Source: Mesostigma viride (taxonomy: Eukaryota > Streptophyta > Mesostigmatophyceae > Mesostigmatales > Mesostigmataceae). Taken from it: a stretch of 64,000 nucleotides of DNA. This document shows, in pieces, positions 4,974 to 51,494 of this stretch. The stretch spans positions 6,649,302-6,713,301 of the forward strand of contig RPFO01000041.1 of the NCBI GenBank assembly GCA_009746045.1. Direction: 5' to 3'. Both the position numbers and the translations under genes were made by a program. Below the pieces are notes generated by a model. The model had not been told where the DNA came from. It worked only from the letters and a program-made list of their open reading frames with translations, and searched no databases. Position 1 is the stretch's first letter, and each line of letters starts with the position of its first letter.

Positions 4974-7090
4974 AGCATCGAGAGGTTTAGCAGTCAGATG
5001 TGGTAGTAACGCGGTCATCATTGTCAGGCAGGGTTGGGGCGCAGGGCCGTGCGGTCGCTGGGGACGTGGGGTGGTAGAGGGGTGGTGGCTGGGATGTGGG
5101 CTTCTTATCATGCCGTTGTCGGTGTGCTTTTATGTTTAGTGCAATGCGTGTGTGGTGCGGCGGGGGTGAGCGTCGATGGGTTGGTTACGTGATCACTAGG
5201 GAGGATGGGAGACAGCTAGGCGTGGGGCAGGGCATGTTGAGTATAACGGGTGGGGTGGCAGGGACAGGGCTGGTGTGGGTATGGATGTTAGGGACGTCGG
5301 TGAGGCTGGCGGGTAGGTACGGATAGCGCGTGGGTGTGGGTGACATATGGTCGGGCACATGGGCGCAGTACGGGCGCAAGTAGTGCATACGGGCACAGGG
5401 CACGAGAGTGTTAGTGGGGTAGTGTAGGGTGGGCTTGCAAGGTTGCTGTATGCGTGAGGCATGCGACACATGGCGTGGTAATGGGTTGTACGGATGTTGG
5501 GCTCAATTAGATGGGGTGGCAGTGTGACAGACAATGGCCTGGACAGCAGGTGATCCATGCGGCTGAGTGGTACGCTTTTATCACTGCTTCAGACTATATA
5601 TATGCTGTTGCTGCGCGTGTAGTTTTGTGATGTATAGTTAGTTGTACCTTGTGCAGCTGGCGTGATCCTTGGATGTCTGTGACAGATTACTATTAATTTC
5701 TTCAGGGTTATTCTCCCAGTTATCGGGTTTTTCCTTATGTTGCATGCCTATCTCACCTCCGTAATCTATCATTCTCAATGAATATATGCGTACAACAGCT
5801 CGTGCTGTCAGGTGATGAGAGTGTAGCGGTGCGCCCCTCTGTTCCCTGCGATGCCACCCCCAGCTCACCATGTGGCACCATCGCTAGCTTCCCACAGGGA
5901 CACTGCTGCTGCTGCGGGGCACTTAACTGGGGGCGGGGCCGCCCACGTGAGTCGGCGTAGTCGGGTTCGTGGCCGTTCTGTCACCTGCATGCACGAGTGG
6001 GGCGGGGTGGGGTGGTGTGTGTGGGGGGGGGGGGCTGTGGCGTGTTGTGCATTCGTGGTGGTGTGGCTGTGAAAATGTATAGTCCGTAGGTGCATGGTCG
6101 GTTGTGCAGCACGTGGATGGACAAGGACGGGACACACTAAACGTCGTAGGCTGTGACATTGGTGGATTGTATTGTGGGAAAAGGTAGATGGAAGAGTCAC
6201 AATTGTGGCAACGTAATGTGACCCGTAGCGACTTGGGAGACAGGGGGTCTGGTCTTGGTTGTGGGAGGGGGGGGTGGGAGGGGGGGGAACCCCCCCTTGG
6301 CTGGGAGGTGAGCTGGCAGCATCCATCGGGAGGTTTAGCAGTCAGATGTGGTAGTAACGCGGTCATCATTGTCAGGCAGGGTTGGGGCGCAGGGCCGTGC
6401 GGTTGCTGGGGACGTGGGGTGGTAGAGGGGTGGTGGCTGGGATGTGAGCTTCTTATCATGCCGTTGTCGGTGTGCTTTTATGTTTAGTGCAATGCGTGTG
6501 TGGTGCGGCGGGGGTGAGCGTCGATGGGTTGGTTATGTGATCACTAGGGAGGATGGGAGACAGCTAGGCGTGGGGCAGGGCATGTTGAGTATAACGGGTG
6601 GGGTGGCAGGGACAGGGCTGGTGTGGGTATGGATGTTAGGGACGTCGGTGAGGCTAGCGGGTAGGGACGAATAGCGTGTGCGTGTGGGTGACATATGGGC
6701 GGGCAGGGGGCGGTGCGGGCACAAGTAGTACGGGCACAGGGCACGAGAACGTTAGTGGGGTGGGGTGGGCTTGCAAGGTTACTGTAAACATTGAGGCAGA
6801 TTACATATGACTTGAGGATGGGTGGTACAAAGTTGGGCGCAATAATAGCTGCGGTGGCAGTCGTACCAACCATGCATGGCATGGACAGCATCTACTACGT
6901 GTGCAGCTGCGTAGTATCCCTCTCTCACCGTCTCAGGGCTTATTTATATGCGTACAACACGTCGTGCTCCTATGTGCGGAAAGCGCTGTGGGTCAGGGGG
7001 CAGACCTTTGTACTAGGGGTGTTCACAGTTACCCTCTCTACAACAATGTGCCTGCAACTCACCTGTGTGTCCGGATTCGTTGGAGCTCTC
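4974..7090. repeat. Tandem pair of 1.34-kb G/T-rich units (copy A)
   Basis: The block at about 4962-5440 recurs at 6303-6780 with few changes, starting at a shared GTGAGCTGGCAGCATC. Weaker similarity continues beyond (TATATGCGTACAACA near 5785 and TATATGCGTACAACAC near 6945). The period is about 1.34 kb and the second unit is cut short by the (GGTC)n array. The plus strand is strongly G-rich, with runs of 12 G near 6022 and 8 G near 6270. ORFs here are low-complexity and not credible as genes. Confidence 0.75.
5608..5793 (-). repeat. Dispersed repeat of about 180 bp, inverted relative to 52296-52473
   Basis: Its reverse complement matches 52296-52473 with only a few substitutions, and copy C repeats it at 30432-30617. 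Both versions keep one frame open (motif MIDYGGEIGMQHKE), but the three differences I can see in that frame all change the amino acid. Conservation as protein is therefore not shown. Confidence 0.7.
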
Positions 7091-7114
7091 GTTTTTGCAT
7101 TTGGCAGTGCCAGG

Positions 7115-7998
7115 GTGGGTAGGTTGGTTGGTCAGTCAATCAGTCAATTGGTTGGTTGTTCGGTCGGTCGGTCGGACGAGCGGTCGGTCTGTCGGTCGGT
7201 CGGTCGTTCAGTCATTTGGTCAGTCGGTCGGTCGATCGGTCGGTCGGTTGGTCGGTCGGTCGGTCGGTCGGTCGGTCGGTCGGTCGGTCGGTCGGTCGAT
7301 CTGTTGGTCGGTCGGTCGGTCGGTCCGGGTCGGTCGGTCGGTCGGTCAGTCAGTCGATCGGTCGGTCGGTCGGTCGGTCGGTCGGTCGGTCGGTCGGTCG
7401 GTCGGTCGGTCGGTCGGTCGGTCGGTCGGTCGGTCGGTCGGTCAGTCGGTCGGTCGGTCGGTCGGTCGGCCGGTCGGTCGGTCGGTCGCTTGGTCGGTCG
7501 GTCAGTCGGTCGGGCGGGCAGGCGGGCGGTCAGTCAGTCGCTCGGTCGCTCGGTCTGTCGATCGGTCGATCGGTGGGTCGGTCGGTCGGTCGGTCGCGCG
7601 GTCGCGGTTGGTCGGTCTGTCTGTCGGTCGGTCGGTCGGTCGGTCGGTCGGTCGGTCGGTCGGTCGGTCGGTCGGTCGGTCGGTCGGTCGGTCAGTCGGT
7701 CGGTCAGTCGCTCGGTCGGTCGGTCGGTCGGTCGGTCGGTCGGTCGGTCGGTCGGTCGGTCGGTCGGTCGGTCGGTCGGTCGGTCGGTCGGTCGGTCGGT
7801 CGGTCGGTCGGTCGGTCGGTCGGTCGGTCGGTCGGTCGGTCGGTCGGTCGGTCGGTCGATCGGTCGGTCGGTCGGTGGGTCGGTCGGTCTGTCGGTCCGT
7901 CGGTCGGTTGGTCGGTCGATCGGTCGGTCGGTCGGTGGGTCGGTCGGTCTGTCGGTCAGTCGGTCGGTCGGTTGGTCGGTCGGTCGGTCGGTCGGTCG
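7115..7998. repeat. (GGTC)n tetranucleotide array, copy A
   Basis: About 880 bp of GGTC repeats, imperfect at the left and nearly pure to the right, with scattered GATC, CAGT and CTGT variants. All frames are open through it, giving GRSV-type repeats on plus and PTDR-type repeats on minus. These long ORFs are a by-product of the repeat. On the minus strand the array follows directly, in frame, from the coding-like fragment at 7999-8087. Confidence 0.95.
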
Positions 7999-8087
7999 AG
8001 CACAGTAATGGATAGGGAACCAAACTCTAAGGTGAGAGGAGTATCTGAACTAGATGAGGATGCAGCACGTCTAGGGGGAGAAGAAGG
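7999..8087 (-). pseudogene. Fragment of the gene into which E2 inserted (copy A)
   Basis: The minus strand reads ...PPRRAASSSSSDTPLTLEF and continues in frame into the (GACC)n array. Its upstream half lies beyond E2, at 52144-52292, and joins it in frame across the target duplication GAAGG (8083-8087 here). See the entry at 52144 for the domain assignment. Copy C carries the same fragment at 32809-32897. Confidence 0.55.
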
Positions 8088-8734
8088 AGTTAGCAACCAA
8101 CCAGAGCTGTGAGCTCCTGGTCTTCCACGCGCACAACGGGATGAGCCAAAGTTGCAAGGCAGCAACCTTTTAACCCGTGCACCAAGCCACGACCACGGTG
8201 AGCGTTTCCACGTCCAATGTGGGAGCCTCGGTTCGTGCTTGCCAAGATAGCTGGTCATCCCCCATGACCAAGCTATATCCTTTGTGTTGTTCCTCGTTCC
8301 CATCGGCGTGACGAGGCACGTGCAGGCGGGCAAGCAAATCCTCAACGTCCACTGGCATCAGTGCAGAGCCAGGACGAACTGGATTTGCCTAGACTCTGCA
8401 ACCTAGGAAGTACAGGACCTGTCACAAGCCTGCAAGGCCTAGTATCCTTGCAGCCCTGTGCTAGCTCCAGTATTCCACCAGTCACAGGCTGCTGCTCCTC
8501 TGGCCTACGTGGACCACAGTCACGTGATAGTCAGGCTAAGCCTGTGCAGGCACGGCCTGCCACGTGTCCTGTCCACTATACCAGAGGACTGCACCCTAGT
8601 CGGCCACGGACGGCTAGGACTTCGGGACCTCATATCTTTCTCGTCCCTTGTCTGTTTCAGGCGGTCAGCACGGCGTTGGAAAGGTCTTTCCAAACTGCAT
8701 CCACTTAGCATATTGGTTGCCCAAAATGCTAACT
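8088..8734 (-). repeat. E2 LTR, 3' side of copy A
   Basis: 647 bp; on the minus strand it begins AGTTAGCATTTTGG and ends GGTTGCTAACT. Matching copies lie at 20255-20894 (degraded), 32898-33543 and 51495-52143. A purine tract, AAAAGAAGAAAGGGTTGG on the minus strand (8735-8752), adjoins it and fits a polypurine tract priming plus-strand synthesis. Orientation agrees with the minus-strand pol. Confidence 0.9.
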
Positions 8735-9742
8735 CCAACCCTTTCTTCTTTTGGAGCTGGACCAGCTTGAAACAAGCCTACCCTTGCTAATTGTGCCCAC
8801 TCAGCCACAGACCACTTGGTCCCTTGAGGTTGATCAGACCTTCTAGGGCCCAGGGTCCTGCCTCCTTTGGGTAACAACATATCTGCCCTTGGACCAGGCT
8901 AGGTGTACTGACCAGTGAATCAGAGGTCACCCCAGGTTATCCCCTGACCCCTTGGTCAGCTCCCAACCTTTCCTTGGGAACTTGGTGCTAGATTAAAGTC
9001 AAGGCACATTACCTAGTCCAATGGCTGGGATTAAAGGATGCCAAGAACGTATTATTGTGAGTTCCTGATCTTTCACAGTTATCACAGGCGCCCGTTCTTA
9101 TGGCGCCCGCCTTGGCCAGCCTTTCCCTTTTATGCTCAAAGAGACTCAGGTAGTACCTATGCAAATACTGCCTTATTGGGGAGCCCATGTCTTCACTGGG
9201 TGTTAAGCCCAGGAATCACTCATGCCAGGCTGTGGCTCTGCTGGGGAATTGAACCCCACCCCAACCTCCAGGTTTATAGGTGACCTGGAACTTCACACAG
9301 GAGAAACATTACAACCATGGCACAACATGAGAATGACATGATTATGTTTTATTCAAGCATTATATAACCCAGAATGTGGCTCCCTGGCAACCATGTCCCA
9401 CATGGTCACACAACCAGGTTCTTTATTAGCAACAGGTTGGAAACGGGCACTAGAAAACATATATACAGCAACCTGTAAGAACCAGCATTCGGGTTGCCCT
9501 TGCATGGCCTAACTGTTTGAGGCCAAAGGCGTCGACTTAAGTCCTGGCGACTCTTCTGAACCCCATGGGGAGGGCCAGGCATGATTCTCAGCTGGTAGGA
9601 GTGACATTCCACACCAACTCCTGTCCAGGAGGGTGTACCTAACCCTGAAGGACCGGCTGTCAACCAGTAAGCACCAGTCACCACTTGGTACTTTGGTCAA
9701 GCAGCCCACTGGGGACACCCAAGCTGAAGCAAGGCCTGGTCT
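8735..9742 (-). other. E2 3' untranslated region (copy A)
   Basis: About 1 kb between the pol stop and the 3' LTR. It holds no credible ORF. It contains a tRNA-like segment at 9242-9300, listed separately, and the polypurine tract at its left edge. Copy C has the same region at 33544-34550. Confidence 0.7.
9242..9300 (-). ncRNA. tRNA-like (SINE-like) segment with Pol III B box
   Basis: On the minus strand, GGTTCAATTCC is a perfect B box inside a T-arm with paired GGGG/CCCC stem (9242-9258). It is preceded by a 5-bp anticodon-like stem CCAGG/CCTGG (9268-9288) and a GTGTGAAG stretch where an A box could lie. No matching 5' acceptor strand is found, so it is not a functional tRNA. The likely source is a tRNA-derived SINE or tRNA relic in the E2 3' UTR. 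Copy C has it at about 34049-34108. Confidence 0.5.
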
Positions 9743-11634
9743 CTATGGCCGCCCGTGTAAGGGGTCCATGAGCCCACGGAGCAGAGGGTACTGCCGCTCC
9801 GCCTTCTCCTCCAGCTTGGTGAGGGCATCTGCAGGGTTGTCCACACCAGGCACATGTTCAATGTGAGCTAGGTAGGACATCTCCTTGAGCAACAAGTAGT
9901 CAAGGTCCCTGCTCCTGGCCAGCTGCCTGTGCACAAATTGCACCATGCCCATGCTGTCAGTCCTCACCAGTGTGTGCAGCTGCAACCTACAGGAAGCCAC
10001 TTGACATAGCTGGTAGAAGAGCTCCCTCAAGTAAAGAGCAGTATGCAGCCCTTCACAGATCGCCCTGCACTCAGCAATATCACTGCTGGGTGTAACCCTG
10101 TTCTGCAACCGACTGTACCAGGTAACAAGTGAGGTGTGATCTTGCTCCAGGGTAACTAATGCTGCTGCCCTGCCCCTGACCTCTGTGACCTTTCTATTAT
10201 CCATAGAACTGTCCACATAGAGAACCATGTCAAGGGGCTTGTACAAATCCACAGGACCCAGTATAAGAGGGGGAGACATCATGACAGCCTGCACCACACT
10301 CTCAGCACCCACCTCAACCAGCTGGGAATCAGTAAGTCGACTCAAAACCAGCAAGTCAGGGGCACATATACTTGCAAGCCATGCCAGCATGCCCCTGATG
10401 GTAGCACACCTAGCCTGCGTGATGGGCTCCTGCAATGCATCTACAATCTGCTGTGGATAGTCCTTACCACCCTCCATCCTGATGAACCACGAGCCCTTGG
10501 CTTGGAACAACGTAGCCTGCATGCCACAGAAGACCATAGGCTCATTCTCCACCATGTGCTGTATCTTACCCAGCTCAAACCGCTTCTGGATCTTGGCCAA
10601 AACAGCCTCAACCCAGTCTGGTGGACCTATAAGATGCAGGTCATCACCATGCAGTGAGGCAAAGACAGGAAGGCCATTGTGGGACCCTTGGAACAAACAG
10701 GGATCCACTGGAGACACAGAAAACCCACAAGTATTCTTCAAGAATTTCTCTAGGCTCTTTCTCCAGATAATGGGACTGGACCTGAGACCTTCCAACCCTT
10801 TTAGAATTCTCAGGTACCTGGCCTTTATCTCTGCTCTCCATACAGCAGGTACAGTCACAAAGAAAGGAGGGATATCTCTCCAAGTCTGCCTAGCCTGATC
10901 TTGGTCACCCTTGAGAAAAGCCCTCTTGAAATCAATTAGCACAGAGCTATAGGGTACACCCTTAACCAGAAAAGACAGAAATATACACAGCAGAATCCTC
11001 CACGTGTCATGCAGCATCCCTGGAGTATAGAGCTCCTCATCTAACAACTGGCCAGTGCCATGATACTCGGTTACAACTGGTCTGACATGTGGCACCTGGA
11101 CACCATCCACCTCCTTGATCGAGCTTGAGGACAAACATCAATCTGAGCAGCTGGTGAACTTCTGGCAGCTCATCCACAGGTTCTGCACAGTTGGAAACTA
11201 TCCACTCATGCCCAGAAGCAACAAAGCCAAGAGTCCATGCCTTAGCCATCTTGGGGCTTTGCATCATCTCGACTAGCTGGCGCCAGGGAATAGGACTGTG
11301 AGCAGCTATCTGGTACCTGTTTACCCCTAACTGCCGTGGATCAAAGGTGGTTGGGATTATCAACAGGTCCTCAGCTATGGGCTCCTGTCCTTAAGGACCC
11401 TCAGCTGGCTGACTCTTAACAGCCTTTACCGCCACTGCAAGACCCTGGGAATAGTGATATCTTTCAAGGGGGAGGCTGCCCCTGCCTTCTAGTGCCAACT
11501 CATCAGAGGTCAAAGTAACCCCTGGCATGCACAAGAAGTTCTGACCCAGAATGGCAGGCCCCTGATAGCCCTCTACCACACAGAACGTGGTGGGCACCCC
11601 TAAGATAGGCACACTCACTTCCCCTAGGATCTTC
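9743..11634 (-). pseudogene. pol: E2 pol, protease C-terminal half - RT - RNase H (copy A)
   Basis: The minus strand encodes, in order: the back half of a retropepsin-like domain (VPILGVP...AILGQNFL, 11391-11630), the RT, and RNase H. RT motif A is DFKRAFLKGD and the catalytic loop is HGDD, where copia elements have YVDD. RNase H residues are D in YVDSSMD, E in AECRAI, D in RTDSMG and D in NPADALTK. An in-frame TAA at 11391 and a one-base shift near 11120 occur in both A and C, so they look real; this E2 is probably inactive. From 11134 to 9743 the 463-residue RT-RNase H frame is intact. E1 interrupts the protease at 11635. Confidence 0.85.
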
Positions 11635-11979
11635 AGTTAAAGCCCGACCGGCTCAGCTATGGCGGTCGGTCACGTTGAGCTTGGGATAAGGTGAACACAG
11701 AGAACTGCTGTCGGAGCTGGCCCACCACTGGTTTATGTCTTAGCCAGCAAACCCTATCCGGTTAGCCGTAACCGTGGGACAAGCTAGCTGTCCGTACCGA
11801 CCCGGATAAGGCCCCGGACTGGGGCCTAGGTGGCGCCGGCCCTAGGCGCCGCCCTTAGACCGGTCGACCGCATCGGACCGCCGGATTATAGCCGGCGGCT
11901 TAGCGGACGCTAGCGGAAGGCGTGCGGACGGACATGGGGAACTTAGAGCCAGATCCTAGGGCTCTAGAGTTACTCAACT
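11635..11979 (-). repeat. E1 3' LTR (copy A)
   Basis: 345 bp, GC-rich and full of short palindromes such as CCTAGG and GGCGCC. On the minus strand it begins AGTTGAGTAAC and ends GGGCTTTAACT. The partner LTR is at 17444-17788. Confidence 0.92.
11878..11898 (-). promoter_or_regulatory. TATA-like box in a perfect hairpin within the E1 LTR
   Basis: On the minus strand CCGCCGG and CCGGCGG pair around the loop CTATAAT. An AT-rich TATA-like stretch in an otherwise GC-rich LTR, on the coding strand, is a candidate core promoter; the stem could also act in the RNA. No start site can be assigned from sequence alone. Confidence 0.3.
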
Positions 11980-12356
11980 CCGACATACTCTTTTGTTCTT
12001 TGATTAATTATCAAAATAATTACATCAAATGCAGACCATACAAAACCCTCTAAGGTAGGGAACTCAAGGGGGCCTCAAGGCCGTCAAAATCACCACGGTA
12101 TCGACCCGCGCCCTTGTGATCACACATGAATAGTGATGTAATAAGTATCGAGAAAAAAACAACTATGCCACCAGACAAAAGGTGACCCATTTATTAGGAC
12201 CAGTGACCCGCCGACGGGCCCAAGGCACCGTCCAACGTGGCTAGGGTATGGTCAGGACAAGCAAAAAAACTACCACCATGATATTCGTGAATGCTAGCAA
12301 CACAGGGTGAGTTATGGCTGTATTCATAAAGCGCCCGAGCCGTAACCCTGTGTGGC
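11980..12356 (-). other. E1 3' untranslated region (copy A)
   Basis: About 380 bp between the RNase H stop and the 3' LTR. It is AT-richer than the coding part (a TTAATTATCAAAATAATTA stretch near 12003-12021). A moderately purine-rich stretch sits next to the LTR, but no clear polypurine tract like that of E2. No gene is seen. Confidence 0.6.
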
Positions 12357-14675
12357 TCACGGGTGTTGCATCGTCATGCGCTTGCGCAACACTGCGTACT
12401 GCGGGGCAGCCTCCCGCGCCTCCTTGGTGAGTGCATCCGCGGGATTGAGTTCATCCGCGATGTGCTGGAGACGCGTGACGCAGGAGGCCGCCTCAGCGAG
12501 TACGAGGTAATCAACGTCCTGTGACCGCGCATAGGGATTGTCAAGGAAGGCCAAACAACTTTGTGAGTCAGTGTGCACCGTGCTAGTCCAGTGAAGAGTG
12601 AACCCACACGAGCCAAATACCCAACCCAGCAAGTACCGCAGCCACATGCCATGTGAGATAGCTGAAACAATGCCCCGGCATTCAGCCGTGTTGGGGCTAG
12701 TGGCAATGCGGCTGTGCAAGCGCGAGTACCAATCTAACAACATGCCAGGCTGTCCCTCATTGCTAATAAAGAACAGTGCCCCCATGCGGGCCCGCACTTG
12801 GCTGACTGTGCGCGTCTCTAGATTAGCATCCGTCACTATCTCGAGGTGCACCGGCTGTGAGCAATCGAGCCCACGAAGCACAATGCCGGGCGTCATGGCC
12901 AGCTGCCGCCGAACATGAATGGACCCTAGTCCTTCCAGCACATCATCGGGCAGGCGAGCGAGCACCGCCAAATCAGGTGCCACCGTGTCCGCCAACCACC
13001 CGAGCTTGCCCTTAACCGAGGGCCCATGGGTTGCCAACAGCGGGGACGGGAGGTCGGCCAGCAGGTCAACCACATAGTTGCGGCTATCCTGCATGTGCAT
13101 GACCCATTCGCCAGAACGCGAATCCCGCTGCAACGTAGACTGCACGCCGCAAAACACCACGGGTTTACCCTCCTCATGATCCACCGCCCTGCCCAGGGGA
13201 AACTTAGCCGCCACTGCAGCAAGAAACTGGGTAGCAAAGGTGCGAGGTGCCACCAGCTTGAAGTCATCGCCATGCCACACGAAGAGGGCTGGCTCGCCAG
13301 GGACGCCGGTGGGGACCACAAAGAAGTTAGGATCCGCGCGATGGTACGTGGCCCCTAAGCTCTGCAAGACCTCCTCCGCGGAAATGCGGAAGATGATGGG
13401 AGAGCTCTGCAGCCCCTCCACCCCTGTCAACAGCTCGATATACTCGCTGCCAATGGTGCCATCCTGCCAGACCACCGGGACCTTCACCACGTAGCGGGTG
13501 CCTTGCCATGTTTGCTGCGCGACCCCAGCGTCGCTGTGGAGGAATGCCCGCTGAAAGTCACCGCACCACATCCCGTAGTCCTTGCCCGCGTTCCGCTTGC
13601 CCAAGTAGATGACCGTCAGTAGCCGATGCGAAACATGGTTGAGCCCAGGGGTATAAAGATCCTTGGCGTCCAGCGGGGAGGACCCCTTCGTCTCCGTGAC
13701 CACGGGCCTTACCCGGAACACCACCGAAGAGTTGGTCTCGTCCGGCTTGTAGGTGAGCACGAACTTCAACCGCAACCGCGTGGCCCCGGCTGGCACACTC
13801 TCCAATCCTCGGTAGACCTCGCGCTCTCGCCACTGCTCCTTGGCTCGAATGAACGCGTCGCGCCACAAAGCAAACTTGAGAGGATCTTGACAGTCCAGGA
13901 CAAGTTGCTCCCACGTCACAGGGCTATCCGCCGCCAGTGAGTGTGAGTGGAGGCCGAAGCTGCGCGGGTGCCAATCCTGAGGCTGAATGATGGACTGGAC
14001 GAGCGGCGGTGTGGAAAACGCCGCCATCGGTAAGCGCCGCACGACGCCGGGCTGCCCGACCACCACCCCCAATGGAGCGTGGTACTCGCGAAGCGGGATG
14101 CTGCCCACCCCCGCGACTGACAGCAAGTCAGCGGACACTGAGAACCCCGGGTATGATACGAAAGGTTCGCCCAGCAAGGCCACATCCTCGTAGCCATCCA
14201 CGACGTGAAACGGCGTGTCAATGCCCAACACCGGCAGCACCACCATCCCGGTAACTTGATATGCCGAAGTGCCTGCAAAGTCGGTCACCGATTTGTACGG
14301 CGACTCTAGCACTGGATACAGGGTGGCTGCCCGACGAGAGATAATAGACACGGATGCTTGCGTGTCCACAGCCACCAGCTGCCACGGTCTACACGTAGGA
14401 AACAAGGCTGACTTAACCGGCCTGACCCCCTGTGAGAGAGTTTTGACCTGAGCCACCCCTGATGCAGCTTTCGCTTTAAGCGCCTGAGCACGCCACAAGG
14501 CCGTGACCGTTGAAGCCAGGTCCCTAGGTGGGCGAGGCGCATGGGCAGGACCCTGACCCTCCGGCGAGGCCACGCTAGGCGGGCCTCCCACATTATCCGT
14601 GGCTAGCACAGGAGGTGAGTCACTACGTGCACTAGGTCCCGTCAAACCCACCCCATCCTCATCCCACCCATCCAC
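12357..14675 (-). CDS. pol: E1 protease-like - reverse transcriptase - RNase H (copy A)
   Basis: This 772-codon frame is intact. Residues about 100-200 are retropepsin-like: VDTQASVSIIS at the active site (Q where DTG has G), then VLPVLGIDTPFHVVDG and ALLG. RT spans about 235-520, with D373 in DFQRAFLH and HGDD at 468-471, in place of the usual YVDD. RNase H spans about 610-760, with D616 (TDAN), E665 (AECRG), D703 (TDSQS) and D747 (NPADALTK), the copia pattern. It overlaps the end of the gag-integrase frame by 34 bases in the -1 frame; its start is GTG or, more likely, translation enters by a shift at a C8 run near 14703. The protease lies after, not before, the integrase. The copy at 37164-39482 matches. 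Confidence 0.9.
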   Translation of the reverse strand: MDGWDEDGVGLTGPSARSDSPPVLATDNVGGPPSVASPEGQGPAHAPRPPRDLASTVTALWRAQALKAKAASGVAQVKTLSQGVRPVKSALFPTCRPWQLVAVDTQASVSIISRRAATLYPVLESPYKSVTDFAGTSAYQVTGMVVLPVLGIDTPFHVVDGYEDVALLGEPFVSYPGFSVSADLLSVAGVGSIPLREYHAPLGVVVGQPGVVRRLPMAAFSTPPLVQSIIQPQDWHPRSFGLHSHSLAADSPVTWEQLVLDCQDPLKFALWRDAFIRAKEQWREREVYRGLESVPAGATRLRLKFVLTYKPDETNSSVVFRVRPVVTETKGSSPLDAKDLYTPGLNHVSHRLLTVIYLGKRNAGKDYGMWCGDFQRAFLHSDAGVAQQTWQGTRYVVKVPVVWQDGTIGSEYIELLTGVEGLQSSPIIFRISAEEVLQSLGATYHRADPNFFVVPTGVPGEPALFVWHGDDFKLVAPRTFATQFLAAVAAKFPLGRAVDHEEGKPVVFCGVQSTLQRDSRSGEWVMHMQDSRNYVVDLLADLPSPLLATHGPSVKGKLGWLADTVAPDLAVLARLPDDVLEGLGSIHVRRQLAMTPGIVLRGLDCSQPVHLEIVTDANLETRTVSQVRARMGALFFISNEGQPGMLLDWYSRLHSRIATSPNTAECRGIVSAISHGMWLRYLLGWVFGSCGFTLHWTSTVHTDSQSCLAFLDNPYARSQDVDYLVLAEAASCVTRLQHIADELNPADALTKEAREAAPQYAVLRKRMTMQHP

Positions 14676-17424
14676 GGGGTCATATTGGGGCCCAGGGGAG
14701 GGGGGGGTGTAGCTGTGTCTGCCCCTGGGAGCGACCCGTGGGGTACCACCTCAGATGCTACGACAGGCGCATTATCCTTCACTACCCACCCCAGTGCCCT
14801 GTTGGCTGCCAGCTCACTCTCCATGCTATCCCCTTGCTTATAGCCTGCCACCGATGCCCATGGTACCCTATACACCCGATCATTCCACTCTATGTCTATG
14901 ACCCGCAGCGGCCAGTCTAACTTTGTGATGGCCCCAGGCCCCTGCATGGTGCCCCGTTTGCCGCTGGGCGAGCTCTCCTTGTGGAACATGACCAACTGCC
15001 CGACCTCAAAAGCGCTAGACAAATCAGGCAGCGTGGCATCCTTGAGCCGCAGCTTGGCGGCGGTATCCTGTAGATGCTGTTGGTATGCCTCTACTACCTC
15101 GGGTGAGTAGGTGCCCGCTGACAGCCCCCGAGGCGTGACTAGCCCAAAGCCCTTGACATCAAGCACGTGCCTATGGTTGCACACATGCATGAGCTCCTTG
15201 CACCACGCCGTCTTGACCGCGTAGGATTTGCCATGTGGGTTATCCTGTCGCTTGGCTGCCACAGTCTTGACATAGCTTACAGTGCGATCTATCATGCCCA
15301 TATTGCCGTGATCCTCACGCCCCACGATGACCACGGCCTCCATCCCCGGCAAACCTTGCACACAGCGGAACTGCTGGTCTAGCATGAGCTCCACTACGGG
15401 ATGAAAGAAAGCCAGGCTGATCTTGATAGCCCTGTGCAGGTCAGCCTCAAACATGTGAGGCAGCGGCTCAATGTAGGTGGCCTTGCTGAACCTATCCTTG
15501 ACTATGAAATAGGTGTCCCCCCCTTCCATGTGCATGACATCCCCCACAAGGTACCCTCGCTCCAAGGGTGGAGTCTTGGCATGCCGCCTACGCGACTTCT
15601 TCCTGATCTTGATGCAGGCAGGACACTGAGCACGCACATTCTTCAGCTCGTTGTATAAAGGTGCCCCCAACATGTGTGCCCCCTCTACCTCGGCTTGGGC
15701 CTCATGCCCGTATGCACGGTGCATCTGGTATGCTAACAGTTTCAGGGTGACAGCCTGAGGTGCAGTGGCATTGTCAGGATTCTCAACAGGTGGGGTGACT
15801 ACTGGGGTAGTGACATTGGCTAACTGGGCAGCTTCAGAGGCTGCACGAAAGGCCGCCCGTGTGAGCACCTTGCCAATGTGAAGATCCACACTAGGGTGGT
15901 GTGTACCGAGAACATCTGCCCGCCCAGCATTCTCTTGCACTGTCACAACATTCCTCATAGGCCCAACCGCCCCAGTATCTAGCTGGGGTGCTGCAGTAGT
16001 GCTTGGTCGCTCGGCGTTGTACACACCCGACCTAGAAGACACCACATTGCTTAGGTCACGCATTGTAGACCCGTGCTCAGGAAGCACGTGATCCTGGCGC
16101 GACAGAGCCAGAGCAGCATCAACGGATTGCGTGAGCACATCACGGAATGAGACAGAGGATGCAGTCACGTTGCTTTTAGGAACGACGTCAGGCTCTACGA
16201 CGGCCCGGTTCAGCGTGACGCATTGAGCAAAAGAAGGGGTATCGAGCGTGCTCTCACCTGACTTTCGTGCTGCCCGTCGCTCTGCCCACTCCTCGCGTGT
16301 GCCGTGGACGACGATGCGCTTGGCCTTGCACGCCTCCACGCTGTGACCACGCAGAACGTCGTGGCACTTGCGGCAAAGGTTGTCCTCGAGCTCCAGGTCC
16401 GGGCGAACTCGGCAGTCATCCCGGACATGGCGACGTCCGAAGCAGCGCTCACAGCGTTGCTTGCGGTCAGTAGACGCCCCCTGCTGCCGCTTGGCCGGGG
16501 GATGATCACCCTGCTTGGCGTCGCCACCATGCCCGCGCTTGCGCCCTCGCTGGCCCCCGTTGTTGCCGTGGCCGACGACCTTTTTCAGGATGGCCGTAAG
16601 CTCCGACCGCGTAATTGGAGCCTCTGCGCCTGAAGAAGAAGACGCGCCGGCATCCACCTTGCGCAGGGATGGCAGAGCAGCCGAGGCAGCCGGCTTGGAC
16701 TGCGCACTCTTGAAGCATGAGATCAAATACAGCATGCCCTCGTCGAAACTGACGGCACTCTTCTTTTTGAGTTCCGTCGCTATGGTCAGATGCACATCCG
16801 ACGACAGGTCGCATTTCTTGAGAAATCGATTGCACAGGAAAATGGGCTTGAGAGTATCTAGCAGCTTGTGCTTGTGCACGAAGACCTGGAAATCACGTGC
16901 AGCCCCGGGCAAATTTGCCTTATTAACTGCATAGCCCTCGAAGTCGTTGAAGGCTTGCTCGTCGGCCTCTTCCTTAGACCGCGACAAGTGGGCATCTAGA
17001 CCGTTGTAAAAAACTTCCCAGGTTTGTTTGTTGTCGTCCGCAATGCGAACTAGATTGGCAATGTTTGGGTGCTTTGTTGTACTGCAGAATACTGCACGGA
17101 ACTTGCCAATCAGCTCCGAATCTTTGTCTGCGCGTCCATCGCGCAGACGCTTGAGAGCAGCTAGAAAATCTGCTGCGTCGTCCGCCGTATAGTCGGCAGG
17201 TAGATCGCGGGCACCTCCGTTTGCTTGAGAGGGCCGCGATTCAGTGCATCGTCAGCAGCAAGCATCAGATGCTTGAACTGCTTGGCCAGTTCAGGTTGCG
17301 CCACGAGGGTTTGCATCAACCTCGTGGCCTCGTCCGCACTAAAGCGTGGCAGGACGGACCCTGCGGCCTCGCCACTTGGCGTATCTGTGTGTTCGCCCGT
17401 GCGGCTCCGTGTACCGGAAGCCAT
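14642..17424 (-). CDS. gag-int: E1 gag - integrase polyprotein (copy A)
   Basis: The start is MASGTRSRTG at 17424, only 19 bases inside the LTR. The frame breaks near 17206, where A lacks one C present in C; otherwise it would be about 927 codons. A helical capsid-like region is followed by a basic RGRKRGHGG segment and two Cys/His knuckles (CERCFGRRHVRDDC and CRKCHDVLRGHSVEAC). Then comes an integrase: HRAYGH...CPAC for the zinc site, and catalytic candidates D in GDVMHM, D in LDQQF and D in GMIDRT, where integrases normally have E. Further on, VYRVPWASVAGYKQGD may be a C-terminal DNA-binding part. An LDTGA motif before the integrase lacks other protease features. Confidence 0.85.
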
Positions 17425-17443
17425 CGGGATTTTTATGAATACA

Positions 17444-17788
17444 AGTTAAAGCCCGACCGGCTCAGCTATGGCGGTCGGTCACGTTGAGCTTGGGATAAGG
17501 TGAACACAGAGAACTGCTGTCGGAGCTGGCCCACCACTGGTTTATGTCTTAGCCAGCAAACCCTATCCGGTTAGCCGTAACCGTGGGACAAGCTAGCTGT
17601 CCGTACCGACCCGGATAAGGCCCCGGACTGGGGCCTAGGTGGCGCCGGCCCTAGGCGCCGCCCTTAGACCGGTCGACCGCATCGGACCGCCGGATTATAG
17701 CCGGCGGCTTAGCGGACGCTAGCGGAAGGCGTGCGGACGGACATGGGGAACTTAGAGCCAGATCCTAGGGCTCTAGAGTTACTCAACT
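17444..17788 (-). repeat. E1 5' LTR (copy A)
   Basis: 345 bp, matching 11635-11979. It carries the element promoter by position. The inner edge is at 17444, and the gag ATG follows 19 bases later, with no canonical TGG-starting tRNA primer site between. Confidence 0.92.
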
Positions 17789-17793
17789 TCTTC

Positions 17794-18680
17794 ATGGACA
17801 CCTTTCCTGAGAAATCAGACACAGCAAGGCACTAAGGCAGATGCCACAAGTGGCACTGACTCTGCTGCTAGCACCACTGTCTTCACCTCACGTATGGATC
17901 TCTCTACAGCCCCTTGCTGCCCATGACTCTCCCTGGGGACTACTACCAGCTTACAAGGCAGCTGGTCCTGATGCTTGAGCAAACAGTCAAACTGCAAGTC
18001 TGCCTGCACACTCTTGCACACCCAAAGCCTGGGATCAGGGCCTTCATACCCAACAACAAGTGGTGCTCCTGCATACCAGGCAGAACGTCTATCAGCCTGT
18101 ATCTACTAAACCTGTCCACCCCCACCAATATATACAAGCCCCTGATATGCTGGATATCCATCTGGATGTCGCCACGCTCCCTAGTAGCAGGTTCCCTAGC
18201 ATGGGACTGAGGTGGGTGAACAGCATTCTCCTGGCATCCACAGTTCTCAGCAGCAGCCTGGCAAGCCTCCCACAAAGGCTCCCTACCTAGCTTCCAAGCA
18301 AACATTGCTGCCTGCCCAGAATGCCCAAACATGTGATGCAACCTATGGCCAGCCTCAGCATAGCTCAGCACTCTCTCAGTACTGACCTGGCGAGACGTCT
18401 GAACCGTGTGTGGGGACACATGATCCACTTCTGAGGTTCCAGGGCTTCCCTGCAGGCCGTCCTGACGCCCCAAGTCAGGCCCTGCACCCTGGACCGCTCC
18501 AGGCCCTTCCAGCAAGGTCCCTTGGCCCTCCAGGCCAGCACCTGCTGGAGACCCACCACCTGCATGAGGAATAGGGAATTCAGCTGCAGCGTTGTTATTG
18601 CAATCCAGTGGAAGAACAACATCTTTACACCCTTGGTGCTGCACAAGGGGCACACCCCCGTCCTTATGTATATCCAGCAC
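17794..18680 (-). pseudogene. int: E2 integrase (copy A, frameshifted)
   Basis: The minus strand encodes an integrase zinc-site candidate (HHMFGH...CGC), a catalytic D in DIQMDIQ or the following VDRFSRY segment, a D in QADLQF and E in QQGAVERS. Unlike E1, the last catalytic residue is Glu. It is split by a one-base difference from copy C near 18020 (four C residues in C, three here), so this break may be an error. It ends near 17815, directly before the back half of the protease, so the integrase C-terminus and the protease active site appear deleted in E2. Confidence 0.75.
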
Positions 18681-18723
18681 ACCTTCCCTAGGGGTGATTG
18701 ACTATTTACAGGGGATGATGTAG

Positions 18724-19755
18724 CTAGTCACTGCTGCCCAGACTGGCCTCCTGCCCCAGCAGGCTTGGCCTTCCTGTCAGGGCACTCACGACGCCAGTGA
18801 CCTTCCTTGCCACACACAAAGCATGCTCCACCCTTCTTCCCAGACCCAGCCCCACCCTTGCCAGGCTTCCCCTGGCCTCCCTGAGACTGCCCACCCTGCT
18901 TGCCCTGGTTGCCTTGAGCTTGGCCCTTGCCTTGCCCTTGGCCACCCTTACCCTGCTGACCACCAGCTTGCTGGCTCCCAACCCCTCCTTGGGAACCTGC
19001 ACCCTTGCCACCCTGAGCCCCTTGCCTCTGGCGCCTGAAGCGCTTACGCTTGTTAGGCCTTGCCCCATCACGGGCTGGGTACCGGGGACATCACCTTGGC
19101 CCTGCACAGCGGAGGTGGCATTGCTGCCATGGGACTGGATAGCTTTGCAGGCAGGATCTGGCTTCCTTATGCTGAGGATTACAAGCTCCAGAGCACGCAA
19201 GGAGCCATCAGTCTGGTTAAGAAACATGCGGGCACCGTTCCTCCCATCCACACTCAGACCCATACGGTCCAGGAAATAGTCTGCCAAGGCCCTATCTGTG
19301 ACCAGGAAGCCATACTTGGCCCCCTTGTCCCTGATACGGTTGAGCCTAGCCCATTCCTCTGCCACAGGACCCACTATCTCAAAGGTGTCATACTGATGTT
19401 TATAATAGTTGGTGAGGTTGAGAACCTTGTCAGAGAACTCCTCCCTCAACCCATCCAGGAACTGTGCCCAGGTTAGCTTATCCTTGACAGCATCCTAGCC
19501 TTTTTCACGACGCTCTGATGAGTCCCTGTTGCACGTGGACGAGTGAAACACTTGCACTAGGTTGACAGTGGGGTCCACGGAGAACACAACCAGCTCCATG
19601 TCCTCTAGCCACTTGCCTAAAGCTTCCTGGTGCTAGCGGTGGGTTAAGAGGCTTTTTGTCCATTCATAACAGTGACTGCACTCATGTGAGGCCTCGACCC
19701 TGGCAGCGCCTTTACTGGTTCCACCACAGCGGTTGTCACAGCAACAGCACCACGA
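18724..19755 (-). pseudogene. gag: E2 gag, C-terminal two thirds (copy A)
   Basis: Same protein as 43535-44562. It has a capsid-like helical region, a Gly/Gln/Lys-rich tail, and a CCHC knuckle that is out of frame here because A lacks one C near 19082. Several further indels relative to C appear after 19490, where quality seems to fall towards the join at 19941. Confidence 0.75.
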
Positions 19756-19941
19756 GGGGATTCATAAGTGTTTGCTCAATTTCATAAATTTTACTCAATT
19801 TTTCCACATGTGATTAAATCCTTATATTTGTCAATAAGCAGGGGTCATCCAGCCTTCAGACCACAGAAAATAGACCACCCACAAAAAATTGGGCTCATTA
19901 TGAGCTTCAAATGGTGACATTGTGACAGCATACATGTGCAG
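19756..19941. other. Left end of the fold-back element, truncated (copy A)
   Basis: It corresponds to 44565-44755 with many small indels, beginning GGGGATTCATAAGTGTTTGC. It stops abruptly at about 19941, where (GGTC)n-type sequence begins. That join has no equivalent in C and is a suspected assembly breakpoint. Confidence 0.75.
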
Positions 19942-20254
19942 TTTTTCGGTGTCGGGGTCGTCGTCGTCGGGTCCGTCGTCGGTCGGTGGTCGGTGTTCGG
20001 TCGGTCGGTCGTCGTCGGTCGATCGTTTCGGTCGTCGTGGGTCGGTCGGTCTGTCGGTCGTCGGTCGGCTTGTCGGCTTTATGTTCGATGTCGGGTCGGT
20101 GCGGTGGGTCGGTCGTCTGTGGTCAGTCCGTCGTGGTTGGTCGGTCGTCCCGGTCGGTCGGTCAGCAACAAAGTAATGGATAGGGAACCAAACCTACAGC
20201 GTGAGAGGGAGTATCTAACTAGATGAGATGCAGCACGTCTAGGGGGAGAAGAAG

Positions 20255-20894
20255 AGTTAGCAACCAACCAGAGCTGTGAGCTCCTGGTCTTCACGGCACC
20301 AACGGGATAGCCGAACAGTTGCAAGGCAGCAACCTTTTACACGCGGCACCCAAGCCACGACCACGGTGACGTTCCACGTCCAATGTGGGAGCCGTCGGTT
20401 CGTGCTTGCCAAGTAGTGTCATCGCCACATGAACCAAGCTATATCCTTTTGTGTTGTTCCTCGTTCCATCGGGCGTGACGAGGACGTCATGCGGGCAAGC
20501 AAAATCTCCAACGCCACTGGCATCAGTGCAGAAGCAGGACGAACTGGATTTGCCTAGACTCTGCAACCTAGGAAGTACGGACCTGTCACAAGCCTGGCAA
20601 GGCCTAGTATCCTTGCAGCCCTGTGCAGCTCAAATTCCACCAGTCAAGGCTGCTGCCTGCTCCTCTGGCCTACGTGGACACAGTCACGTGATAGTCAGGC
20701 TAAGCCTGTGCAGCAGGCTGCACGTGTCCTGTCACTATATCCAGAGGAACTTGCAGCCTAGTCCCACGGACGGCTAGGACTTGGGACTCATATCATTTCT
20801 GTCCCTTGTCTGTTTCAGTGCGGTCCGCACGGCGTGGAAAAGGTCTTTCCAACTGCATTCCACTTAGCATATTGTGTTGCCCAAAATGCTAACT
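20255..20894 (-). repeat. E2 LTR, degraded copy B
   Basis: It starts AGTTAGCAACC and ends ATGCTAACT like the intact LTRs, but has dozens of indels. A remnant of the target duplication precedes it (GAAG). Confidence 0.85.
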
Positions 20895-21899
20895 CCAACC
20901 TTTCTTCTTTTGGAGCTGGACCAGCTTGAAACACAGCCTACCCTTGCTAATTGTGCCCACTCAGCACGACGACTTGTCCCTTGAGGTTGATTCAGACTTC
21001 TAGGGCCAGGGTCCTGCCTCCTTGGGTAACAACATATCTGCCCCTTGGGACCAAGGCTAGGTGTACTTGACTCAGTGATCAGAGGTCACCCAGGTTATCC
21101 CCTGACCCTTGGTCAGCTCCCAACTTCCTTGGGAACTTTGGTGCTATAGATTAAAGCAGGCCATTACTAGTCCACTGGCTGGATTAAGGAAATGCCAAGA
21201 ACGTATTATTGGGTGAGTTCTGATCTTTCACAGTTATCACAGGCGCTCCGTTCTTATGGCGCCCGCCCTTTGGCCAGCTTTCCCTTTTATGCTCAAAGAG
21301 ACTCAGTAGTACCCTATGGCAAATACTGCTTATTGGGGCGCCCATGTCTTCACTGGGTCGTTAAGCCCAGACCACTCATGCCAGCTGTGGCCTGCTGGGG
21401 AATTGAACCCCACCAACCTCCAGGTTTTAGGTGACCTGGACTTCACACCAGGAGAAACATTACACCATGGCACACAACATGAAAGAATGACATGAATTAT
21501 GTTTTATCCGCATTTATATAACCCAGAATGTGGCTCCCTGGCAACCATGTCACATGTCACACAACCAGGTTCGTTTATTAGCAACAGGTTGGAAACGGGC
21601 ACTAGAAACATATATAAGCAACTGTAAGAACAGCATCGGTTGCCGCTTGCCATGGCCTAACTGTTTTGAGGCAAAGGCGTCCGACTTAAGTCCTGGGCGA
21701 CTCTTCTGAAACCCCATGGGGAGGCCATGGCATGATCTCAGCTTGTTAGGAGGTGAGCATTCACACCAAACCCTTCAGGAAAGGTGTACCTAACCCTGAA
21801 GGACCGGCTTGTCACGCAGTAAGCACCAGTCACCACTTGGTACTTTGTCAAGCAGCCCACTGGGGACAACCAAGCTGAAGCAAGGCCTGTCTCTATGGC

Positions 21900-23736
21900 C
21901 GCCCGTGGTAAGGGGTACCCATGAGCCTACGAGCAGAGGGTACTGCGCCCGCCTTCTCCTCCAGCTTGGTGAGGGCATTGCCAGGGTTGTCCACCCAGGC
22001 ACATGTTCATGTGAGCTAGGTAGGACATTCCTTGAGCAACAAGTAGTAGGTCCCTGCTTCCTGCCAGCTGCCTGTGCACACATTGGCACCATGCCCATGC
22101 TGTCATCCTCACCAGTGTGTGCAGCTGCAACTACAGGAAGCCACTTGACATAGCTGGTAGAAGAGCTCCCTCAAGTAAGAGCAGTAGCAGCCCTTCACAG
22201 CTCGCCCTGCACTCATGAATCTGACTGCTAGGGTGTAACCTGTTCTGCAACCGACTGTACCGGTATACACGTGAGGTGTGATCTTGCTCAGGTAACTAAT
22301 GCTGCTGCCCTGTCCCTGACCTCTGTGCCTTTCTATATCCATAGAACTGTCACATAGAGAATCCCCAATGTCAAGGGGCTTGGTACAAATCCACAGGCCC
22401 AGTCTAAAGGGGGAGACAGCAGTGACAGCTGCACACACTCTCAGCACCCCATCTCACCAGCTGGAATGCAGTAAGTCGATCTCCAAACCAGCAAGTCAGG
22501 GGCACATATACTTGCAAGCCAATGCAGCATGCCCTGATGGTAGCACACCTAGCTGCGTGATGGGCTCCTGCAATGCATCTACAATCTGCTGTGGAATAGT
22601 CCTTACCGGAACCCTCCATCCTGATGAACCCGAGCCTTGGCTTGGACACGAGCTGCATGCACGAAGACCATAGGCCTCATTCTCCACCATGTGCGTAATG
22701 TTAACATCAAACCGCTTCTGGATCTTGGCAAAACACCCTCCACCCGTCTGGTGGCTATAAGATGCAGGTATACCATGCAGTGAGGCAAAACAGGAAGGCA
22801 TTTGGGACCTTGGATACAACAGGGATCCACTGGAGACACAGAAAACGCCAACAAGTATTCTTCAAGGAATTTCTCTGGCTCTTTCTCCGATAATGGACTG
22901 GACCTGGACTTCCCCAACCCTTTTAAGAATTCTCAGGTTACTGGCCTTTATCTCTGTCTCCATCATGGCAGGTACAGTCACAAAGAAAGAGGGAATATCT
23001 CTCCAAGTCCTGCCTGCCTGATCTGGTCACGCCTTGAGAAAAGCCCTCTTGAAAATCAATTAGCACAGAGCTATAGGGTAAACACATCTAACCAAGAAAG
23101 ACAGAAATCATACACGCAGAACCTCACGTGCATCAGCATCCTGGAGTATAGAAGCTCCTCATCATAACAACTGGCCGTGCCAATGATACTCGGTTACAAC
23201 TGGTCTGCTGTGGCACCTGGACACATCCACCTCCTTGGATCGACTTTGGGACAACTCCATCTGAGCAGCTGGTGGAAGCTTCTGGCAGTCATCATCGGTT
23301 CTGCAATTGTTGGAACAATCCACTCATGCCCAGAAGCAAAAAGACAAGAGTCATGCTAGCCATCTTGGGCTTTGGCATCATGCTCGACTACTGGCAGGGA
23401 TAGGACTGTGAGCAGCTATGCTGGTACCTGTTTACCCCTAACTGCCGTGGATCAAAGGTGGTTGGGATTATCACAGGTCCTCCGCTATGGGCTCCTGTCC
23501 TTAAGGACCCCAGCTGGCTGACTCTTACACAGCTTCTACCCGCCACGCAAACCCTGGGAAATAAGTGATATCTTTCAAGGGGGAGGCTGCCCCTGCCTCT
23601 AAGTGCACTTCATCAGAGGTAAGTACCCCTGGCAGCCACAAGAACAGTTCTGACCCAAATGGCAGCCCCTGATGCCTCTACACACAGAACGTGGTGGGCA
23701 CCCTAAGATAGGCCCACTCACTTCCCTAGGATCTTC
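21900..23736 (-). pseudogene. pol: E2 pol, degraded copy B
   Basis: It aligns with 9743-11634 throughout, including the TAA that ends the protease frame, and is broken in every frame by short indels. It ends at the E1 target duplication TCTTC (23732-23736). Confidence 0.8.
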
Positions 23737-26700
23737 AGTTAGCCCGACCGCTCAGCTATGGTGGTCGGTCACGTTGAGCCTTTTGGCTAAGGTGAAGCAC
23801 AGAGAACTGCGTCGGAGCTGGCCACCATGGTTTATGCTTAGCCAGCAAACTCTATCCGGTTAGCCGTAACCGTGGGACAAAGCTAGCTGTCCGTAACCGA
23901 CGGATAAGGCCGACTGGGGCTAGGTGCGCCGGCCCTAGGCCGCGCCTTAGAGCCGGTCGACGCATCGGACCCGCCGGATATAGCCGGCGGCTTAGCGACG
24001 CTAGCCGGAAGGTCGTGCGCGGCACATGGGGACTTAGAGGCCAGGATCCTAGGGCTCCTCCAAGAGTTCTCAACTCCGACTACTCTTTTTGTTCTTTGTT
24101 AATTATAAACTAATACCTAATGCAAGACCTATACAGAAACTCTAAGGTAGGACGCAAGGGGGCTCAAGGCCGTCAAATCACCAATGGTATTCGACCGCGG
24201 CCCTTGTGATCACTATTCATGAATAGTGATGTAATAAGTAGAGAAAAACAACTATGCCAACAGAACAAAAGGTGACATTTATTAGGACCAGTGACCCGCC
24301 GACGGGCCAAGGCCCGTCCAACGTGGTAGGTATGGTCAGTAAAGCAAAAAACTACCACCGATGCTATTCGTGAATGCTAGCACACAGGGTGAGTTTATGG
24401 TGTATTCATAAAGCGCCCGAGCCTACCCTGTGTGGTCTCACGGGTGTTGCATCGTCATGCGCTTGCGCAACACTGGCGTACTGCGGGCAGCTCCGCGCCT
24501 GCTTGGTGAGTGCAATCGCGGGATTCGGTTCATCCGCGATGTGCTGGAGACGCGTACGCAGGAGGCCGCTCAGCGAGTACGAGTAATCAACGTCCTGTGA
24601 CCCGCGCATAGGGATTGTCAAGAAGGCCAAACACCTTTGTGAGTCAGTGTGACATCCGTGCTAGTCAGTGGAGAGTGGCCGCACACGAGCCAATCCAACC
24701 CAGCAAGTACCGTAAGAAAAGCAGCACATGCCATGTGAGATAGCTGAAACAAGTGCCCGCAATTCAGGCGTGTTGGGGCTAGTGGCAATGCGGCTGTGCA
24801 AGCGCGAGTACCACATCTAACACATGCAGGCTGTCCCTCATTGCTAATGAAAGACAGTGCCCCATGCGGGCCCGCACTTGGCTGACTGTGCGCGTCTCAG
24901 AATTAGCATCCGTACTCCTTCGAGGGTGCACGGGTGAGCAATCGAGTCCCACGAGCACAATGCCGGGCGTCATGGCGCTGGCCGCGACATGAATGGACCT
25001 ATCCTTCCAGGCACATCATAGGGCAGGCGAGCGCGCACCGCCAAATCAGGTGCACCGTGTGCGCAAACTCACCCGGCTTGCCTTACCGAGGGCCCATGGG
25101 TTGCCAACGGGGGACGGGAGGTCGGACCAGCAGGGGTCACCAATAGTGCGGCTATCCGCATGTGCATGACCATCCGCCAGAACGCGAATCCCCGTGCAAC
25201 GTAGACTGACGGTGCCAAACACCCGGGTTTCCTGCCTCATGATCCACCGCCCTGCCCAGGGGAAACTTAGCCGCCACTGCCGGCAAGAAACTGGGTAGCA
25301 ATATGTGCCGAGGTGCCACAGCTTGAGTCATCGCCATGCCACACGAAGAAGGGCTGGCTCGCCAGGCGACGCCGGTGGGACAACAAAGAAGTTAGGATCC
25401 GCGCGATGGTTACGTGGCCAACTCTGCAAGACTCCCGGGAAATGCGGAAGATGATGGGAGATCTGCAGCCCCTCCACCCTGTCAACAGCTCGATATACTC
25501 GCTGCCAATGGTGCACCTGCCAGACACCGGGTACTTCACCAGTAGCGGTGCCTTGCCCATGTTTTGCTGCGCGACCCCAGCGTCGCTGTGGAGGAATGCC
25601 CGGCTGAAAGTCACCGCACCACATCCGTAGTCCCTTGCCCGCGTTCCGCTTGCCGAAGTAGATGACCGTCAGTAGCCGAGTGCGAAACATGGTTGAGCCC
25701 AGGGGTTAAAGTCCTTGGGCGTCCAGCGGGGAGGCCCTTCCGTTCCGTGACCACGGAGCCTAACCCGCGAACACCACCCGAAGAGTTGGTCTCGTCCGGC
25801 TTGTAGGTGAGTGCAACGAATCTTCAACCTCAACCGCGTGGCCCCGGCTGCACACTCTCCAATCCTCGGTAACCTGCTGCTCTCGCACTGCTTCGCTTGG
25901 CTGAATGAACGCGTCGCCGCACAAAGCAAAACTTGAGAGGATCTTGAACAGTCCAGGAACAAGTGCTTCCCAGTCAACAGGCTATCCGCCGCCAGTGAGT
26001 GTGAGTGGAGGCCGGAAGCTGCGCGAGGTGCCCATCCTGAGGCTGGAATGATGAACTGGACGAGCGGCGGTGTGGAAACGCCGCCATGGTAGCGCCGCAC
26101 GATGCCAGGGCTGCCCGACCACCACCCCATGGAGCGTGGTACTCGCGAAGCGGGATGCTGCCCACCCCGCCGACTTGAACAGCAAGTCGCGGACCTGAGA
26201 ACCCCCGGGTATGATACGAAAGGTTTCGGCCACAAGGCCACATCTGTAGCCATCAGACGTGAACGGCGTTCAATGCCCACAGCTGGCAGCACTACCATCC
26301 CGGTACTGATATGCCGAAGTGCTGCAAAGTCGGTCATCCCGATTTGGTACGGCGACTCTAGCACTGGATCAGGGTGGCTGCCGACGAGAGATATAGACAC
26401 GAGCTTGCGTGTCCAACAGCCACAGCTGCCACGGTCTACACGTAGGAAACAAGGCTGACTTAACCGCCTGACCCCCTGTGAGAGAGTTTTGACTGAGCAC
26501 CCTGATGCGCTTCGCTTAAGCGCCTGGCACTGCCACAAGGCCGTGACGTTGAAAGCCAGGTCCCTAGGTGGGGCGAGGCGCATGGCAGGACCCTGACCTT
26601 CCGGCGAGGCCACGTAGGCGGGCCTCCACATTATCCTGGCTAGCACAGGAGGTGAGCACTACGCACTAGGTCCGTCAACCCACCCCTCCTCATTCCCACC

Positions 26701-29700: not shown

Positions 29701-29754
29701 GGACGGACATGGTAATTAGGAGCCAGATCCTAGGGCTCTAAGAGTTACTCAACT
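23737..29754 (-). mobile_element. E1 retrotransposon, degraded copy B
   Basis: LTR-like ends lie at 23737-24075 and 29417-29754, with TCTTC on both sides (23732-23736 and 29755-29759). The pol (about 24444-26690) and gag-integrase (about 26670-29398) regions follow the order of copy A but carry indels every few codons. I count it as the same insertion as in A and C, seen through poor sequence, not as an independent element. Confidence 0.85.
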
Positions 29755-29797
29755 TCTTCAGGTACACTTTCCTGAGAAATCAGACACAGCAAGGCCT

Positions 29798-31909: not shown

Positions 31910-31938
31910 GTTTTTGCATTTGGCAGTGCCAGGGTGGG

Positions 31939-32808: not shown

Positions 32809-32897
32809 AGCACAGTAATGGATAGGGAACCAAACTCTAAGGTGAGAGGAGTATCTGAACTAGATGAGGATGCAGCACGTCTAGGGGGAGAAGAAGG
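32809..32897 (-). pseudogene. Fragment of the gene into which E2 inserted (copy C)
   Basis: Same coding-like fragment as 7999-8087. The duplication GAAGG is at 32893-32897; its partner on the far side of E2 is at 52144-52148. Rejoined there, the minus-strand frame stays open. Confidence 0.55.
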
Positions 32898-43487: not shown

Positions 43488-43534
43488 ACCTTCCCTAGGG
43501 GTGATTGACTATTTACAGGGGATGATGTAGCTAG

Positions 43535-44562: not shown

Positions 44563-44669
44563 GAGGGGATTCATAAGTGTTTGCTCAATTTCATAAATTT
44601 TACTCAATTTTTCCACATGTGATTAAATCCTTATATTTGTCAATAAAGCAGGGGTCATCCAGCCTTCAG

Positions 44670-47244: not shown

Positions 47245-47299
47245 TGCGCGAAACATGAGGGGTGGGAAAACGGAATAAGCACAGAAAACGGAATCAGCG

Positions 47300-48188: not shown

Positions 48189-48189
48189 T

Positions 48190-51464: not shown

Positions 51465-51494
51465 GAAACCACGCAACAGGAATGCAATAATAGG

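Follow-up and report, generated by a model that had tools for sequence, protein, structure and literature searches.

Integrase upstream of a retropepsin-like domain: an unusual domain order in LTR retrotransposons of Mesostigma viride

Where can the integrase (INT) of a long terminal repeat (LTR) retrotransposon be placed? The question is raised by a stretch of 64,000 nucleotides (nt) from Mesostigma viride, here called the window (G000:C1579:6649302-6713301). It holds two elements, E1 and E2, that appear to carry INT before the protease (PR). In copia elements INT is located between PR and the reverse transcriptase (RT), and in gypsy elements it comes last, according to a passage in PMC3248453.

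We read E1 and E2 as members of a deeply divergent LTR retrotransposon group whose RT is copia-related and whose order is Gag-INT-PR-RT-RNase H, together with an inferred recoding and PR action described below. We give this a probability of roughly 0.75. The novelty is one of domain order among LTR retrotransposons and does not extend to the kind of element: two LTRs with a target site duplication (TSD), a gag zinc knuckle, RT, RNase H and integrase are all found. The genome searches covered an assembly of 439.9 Mb in 2243 contigs. According to part of PMC6947507, the M. viride NIES-296 genome was assembled from PacBio data into 2363 scaffolds and is rich in LTR elements.

E1 is a complete LTR retrotransposon on the minus strand (11635-17788). 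Its 5’ LTR (17444-17788, 345 bp, AGTT...AACT) is identical to its 3’ LTR (11635-11979) at 345/345 bp, and both are flanked by the 5 bp TSD TCTTC (11630-11634 and 17789-17793). Open reading frame (ORF) 1, at 14642-17424 with its first ATG at 17424, holds gag, CCHC knuckles and INT with a C-terminal domain; in the window copy it has a frame break near the start of gag. ORF2 (12360-14750, 797 amino acids (aa)) holds PR, RT and RNase H.

Following the transcript, two CCHC knuckles are found from 16453, then the HHCC of INT from 15721, with the INT core running to ~15290 (HHCC plus D-D-D core by motif alignment: 15287-15721), and the INT C-terminal domain at ~15010-14870. Next are the PR Asp at 14366 and the PR ALLG at 14180, both within a retropepsin-like domain (VDTQAS...ALLG, 14046-14387) that is supported by a structure model and weak sequence matches. 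The HGDD region of RT at 13277 follows, and RNase H ends in ADALTK at 12440. These positions bear out the original prediction, which had read E1 as gag, integrase, protease, RT and RNase H.

The two frames overlap by 109 nt in -1 phase (14642-14750, minus strand). This overlap contains the heptamers CCCCCCT (14705) and GGGCCCC (14693), both in the phase that a -1 slip site would require; RNA downstream of the presumed frameshift does not fold better than shuffled sequence (z 0.07). A single fused frame, masked by a homopolymer error, is not supported, since the C8 run at the junction is the same in 20/20 genome loci read. These loci are 20 of the 57 scored matches. ORF1 is open to the locus edge in 8 of them. 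The exact 3’ LTR end could be located in 15, and no two of these have the same flank.

The ORF2 search of the genome yielded at least 57 matches on many contigs, all scored ones 100% identical over 797 aa. This count is a lower bound that is biased to the best copies, because only the best of 8349 first-look candidates were scored. A protein search with ORF2 returned two proteins, both Mesvir1, one of them matching 79% of the query at 100% identity. The second marks a third family, E3.

Directly after the 5’ LTR of E1 (17425-17443), at the expected position of a tRNA primer site, is the sequence TGTATTCA, which is common to E1 and to two E3 loci (L041 and L043). Primer binding sites usually start with TGG, and this one does not.

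Could the order be an artefact of a rearranged copy, a nested insertion or a misassembly? The window gives some reason to ask. Positions 4974-19948 are repeated at 29798-44754 with 99.7% identity, so a 15-kb block is present twice. Between the two lies a further error-rich copy of ~10 kb (19946-29795, 88% identity, with hundreds of gaps that make up most of the differences). The repeat and its gap-rich middle copy probably arose in assembly, from long reads that were left uncorrected. E1 is also nested inside E2. Given that the block is repeated, E1 and E2 as seen at two places are one nested locus. The second E1 (36442-42594, minus strand, from a self-comparison of the window) duplicates the first and is three single-base indels apart from it, which break ORF1 in places. 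Similarly, the E2 at 43487-42621 that was cited as a second case is not separate from the one at 18701-17815.

Even so, INT, PR, RT and RNase H are found in open frames on other contigs, both for E2 (locus L047) and for E3, and the E1 matches are spread across many contigs. Each of these E2 and E3 frames is uninterrupted (1190 aa for the E2 locus, 1249 aa for E3), which means that the order is not an artefact of frameshift or assembly. This explanation is rejected, and we consider its chance of being right negligible.

E2 in the window is also on the minus strand. Its 5’ LTR (AGTTAGC...GCTAACT) is at 51495-52143 and its 3’ LTR at 32898-33543 (also 8088-8734), both with CCTTC as outer flank. 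Part of gag, with a CCHC knuckle, is at 43535-44584, and zf-CCHC scores above the Pfam cut-off there. The integrase (42621-43508, also 17815-18701) has HHCC and D-D-E, and ends before its C-terminal domain. What follows is the back half of the retropepsin-like domain (36201-36443, also 11394-11636), and then RT and RNase H (34554-35944, also 9743-11137).

Compared to L047, the window E2 lacks ~750-790 bp where E1 sits, and with it the INT tail and the PR front. Because only the back half of PR is kept, E2 within the window is by itself half evidence for the order, which is a point against our reading. The claim that E2 has the same order as E1 therefore stands for the family, through the full frame in L047, and is only half visible in the window copy. 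Among scored matches to the E2 RT there are 91, the window’s own included, all 99-100% identical. A 1190-aa open frame surrounds 9 of these, and the one that was fetched is L047. It reads INT (HHCC, D-D-E), C-terminal domain, PR (VDTNSQ...AILG), RT (HGDD) and RNase H (ADALTK). This pol shares its frame with a gag segment terminated by a single UGA, then CUA; the gag start is in a different frame.

There are two further observations on E2. Upstream of gag there is a 483-aa open frame (50316-51764) without a Pfam match. Since similar sequence is present at the matching place in L047 (L047:2-751), E2 may have an additional gene at its 5’ end. In addition, a repeat-rich insertion at ~44563-49927 interrupts the window’s E2 gag. 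Its inverted arms, 884 bp long, are built of 173-bp units, with a 109-bp tandem array inside, and it resembles a foldback-type element.

The third family provides the longest frame. The 1249-aa frame is found in 13 of the 71 genome matches to E3. Three loci, L041, L042 and L043, were fetched whole. In each of them this frame is present, preceded in the same phase by a gag of 406-424 aa and a single UGA CGU. As read in L041, it contains INT (D-D-D), C-terminal domain, PR (IDTMAG...TLIG), RT and RNase H. L041 and L043 have LTR pairs of ~433 bp (97.9 and 98.8% identical, ends AGTTG...CAACT) with 5 bp TSDs, ATGTT and ACGCT. No LTR pair was detected in L042, so that 2/3 of these loci have TSDs. The knuckles in the gag of both E1 and E3 were read by motif.

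The order INT-PR-RT-RNase H is thus present in three families, with pairwise identities of 28-49% over PR, INT and RT. The LTRs of all three end in AGTT...AACT, and all have 5-bp target duplications. The earlier statement that two diverged elements share the layout, and that it is not one rearranged copy, can be extended to three. All three families have spread recently.

As a control, two conventional copia elements of M. viride (L044 and L045) show Pol_BBD, rve, SH3 and RVT_2 in that order, where we read Pol_BBD as the position of the protease. This is the usual copia order. That copia has PR before INT and gypsy has INT last, as in the original prediction, is also stated in PMC3248453. Neither arrangement is found in E1, E2 or E3: the PR-INT-RT-RNase H order of Ty1/copia is absent from all three, and INT is upstream of RT-RNase H in each, not downstream as in Ty3/gypsy. 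L044 and L045 have LDSAAS where D-S-G is expected, and we take this motif to be their protease active site.

INT was called mainly by motif in the three families. The HHCC and catalytic positions align among them; the triad is D-D-E in E2, while E1 and E3 have Asp for Glu (D-D-D; 20/20 E1 loci and 17/20 E3 loci). Weak rve profile matches were found for E2 (0.021) and E3 (0.0087). A profile of E1 and E2 INT matched integrase entries weakly, at 0.011; from their codes these are presumably of MMTV type. A profile search with E1, E2 and E3 INT together gave no match. Comparison to the host copia profile placed INT where expected, weakly (E 0.04).

The domain between INT and RT was called PR mainly on the basis of predicted structure. 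In a model of the VDTQ domain (moderate confidence, one model), the top structural matches are retropepsins (Foldseek, VIA), and weak sequence matches point the same way, which supports calling it retropepsin-like. With retropepsins (Ddi1, retroviral proteases) it shares this predicted fold, the hydrophobic-Asp-Thr motif and the LLG-type motif. The difference is the third residue of D-T-G.

A rival candidate exists in E1, where the textbook D-T-G-A of an LDTGA motif (15968-15982, minus strand, ORF1 residues 424-428) lies between gag and INT. The E2 and E3 pol frames have no D[ST][GA] before INT, so that E1 stands alone with LDTGA. The structure model of the stretch from LDTGA to INT has a mean pLDDT of 34.6, and around the motif it has no strands and a pLDDT of 24-31. 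This model is poor throughout and weak evidence alone, since INT is likewise unresolved in it. Absent from two families and without strands in a poor model, LDTGA was rejected as the protease, and it is very improbable that it is one. The original prediction had named it the main alternative, though without the later retropepsin motifs, and called for HMM or structure prediction of both regions. That was done: the VDTQ region gave a retropepsin-like model and the LDTGA region no confident fold, so that a retropepsin fold at LDTGA only was not what emerged.

The more serious doubt is whether the VDTQ domain still cuts. The catalytic D-[ST]-G is lacking in the PR domain of all three families, which have DTQ (E1), DTN (E2) and DTM (E3), and the glycine is replaced in 20/20 E1 and 20/20 E3 loci read. 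D[ST]G is absent from the whole of the E2 and E3 pol frames. This glycine is generally regarded as universal among proteases of the retroviral type. These facts, which weigh against our reading, would fit a real order with a dead protease, retained for a structural role or in association with RT, while the polyprotein is left whole or processed by an enzyme of the host. Yet the Asp and Thr of PR are invariant across the families, and PR is as conserved as RT. The host copia LDSAAS also has no glycine at that motif, so a change there alone is no proof of death. A dead protease is a possibility to be taken seriously, if clearly the less probable one.

How do these elements relate to the known groups? 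RT is 36-49% identical among E1, E2, E3 and a fragment from Prorocentrum lima. Against host copia RT, identity is 21-24% where BLAST matched, with E from 0.004 to 1.2. A profile of the four RT sequences matched host copia RT at E 5.1e-7 and RNase H at E 5.4e-6; the same comparison put PR at the wrong place, at E 0.2. Of the RT families, only RVT_2 is listed, for E2 (1.6e-4) and the Prorocentrum protein P0003 (6.9e-6), in both cases below its curated cut-off; it is not listed for E1 or E3. Scans of E1, E2 and E3 gave no RVT_1-type match at E up to 10. Read whole, E1 ORF1, E1 ORF2 and E3 pol match no Pfam family.

With Ty1/copia the elements share LTRs, a CCHC gag, INT upstream of RT and a detectably related RT. 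They differ in that PR comes after INT, and in the RT motif, WHGDD or LHGDD versus HVDD in host copia. Ty3/gypsy elements and retroviruses carry PR directly before RT-RNase H. This is shared by E1, E2 and E3, which in turn differ from both by having INT before PR instead of at the end.

P0003 has 291 aa and holds RT only, so it is known by RT alone. It is 36-43% identical to the three families (~43% to E1) and shares their motifs. Since its RT is related, the clade may extend beyond Mesostigma. Outside the host, the E1 ORF1 search found no relatives, and neither did viral contigs or bacterial and archaeal genome contigs. PDB sequence searches with E1 ORF2 and queries A2 and A4 returned nothing useful.

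This Prorocentrum relative leaves some room for the clade to have been described already under another name, for example in Repbase. A full-text literature search, whose scope excluded Repbase, GyDB and most subscription papers, found no description of the Gag-INT-PR-RT order and no such clade. In the accessible parts of both Mesostigma genome papers (one is PMC6947507), LTR elements are treated in bulk only. Prior description therefore seems unlikely.

It is tempting to go further and see a separate early branch instead of a rearranged copia. INT would then have been placed between gag and an older PR-RT-RNase H block, independently of copia and gypsy, in a group that spans green algae and dinoflagellates and has a retropepsin without catalytic glycine. 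We hold this only tentatively, and think it is doubtful as a whole.

If our main interpretation is right, E2 and E3 would make Gag-Pol by readthrough of one in-frame UGA between gag and INT. E1 would make a Gag-INT fusion, with PR-RT-RNase H reached through a -1 frameshift in the 109-nt overlap. As its recoding site comes after INT, E1 would produce as much INT as Gag, unlike E2 and E3. PR, directly before RT, would act as a dimeric aspartic protease, if a divergent one, relying on the conserved Asp-Thr despite the lost glycine and freeing INT at one end and RT at the other. The cDNA would be integrated with a 5-bp stagger.

Elsewhere in the window, a 495-aa frame (52511-53995) resembles, on visual inspection, the C-terminal portion of an RT from a non-LTR retrotransposon; a Pfam search gave no match at E up to 0.1.

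Domain order is among the main characters by which copia and gypsy are told apart. With a third order seen in one genome, in families of dozens of near-identical copies, the places of INT and PR are shown not to be fixed, and multiple placements of integrase become testable. That three families spread with the glycine of D-T-G replaced also calls the supposed universality of this residue into question. Finally, since Pfam models detect next to nothing here, similar elements may be missed in other algal genomes.
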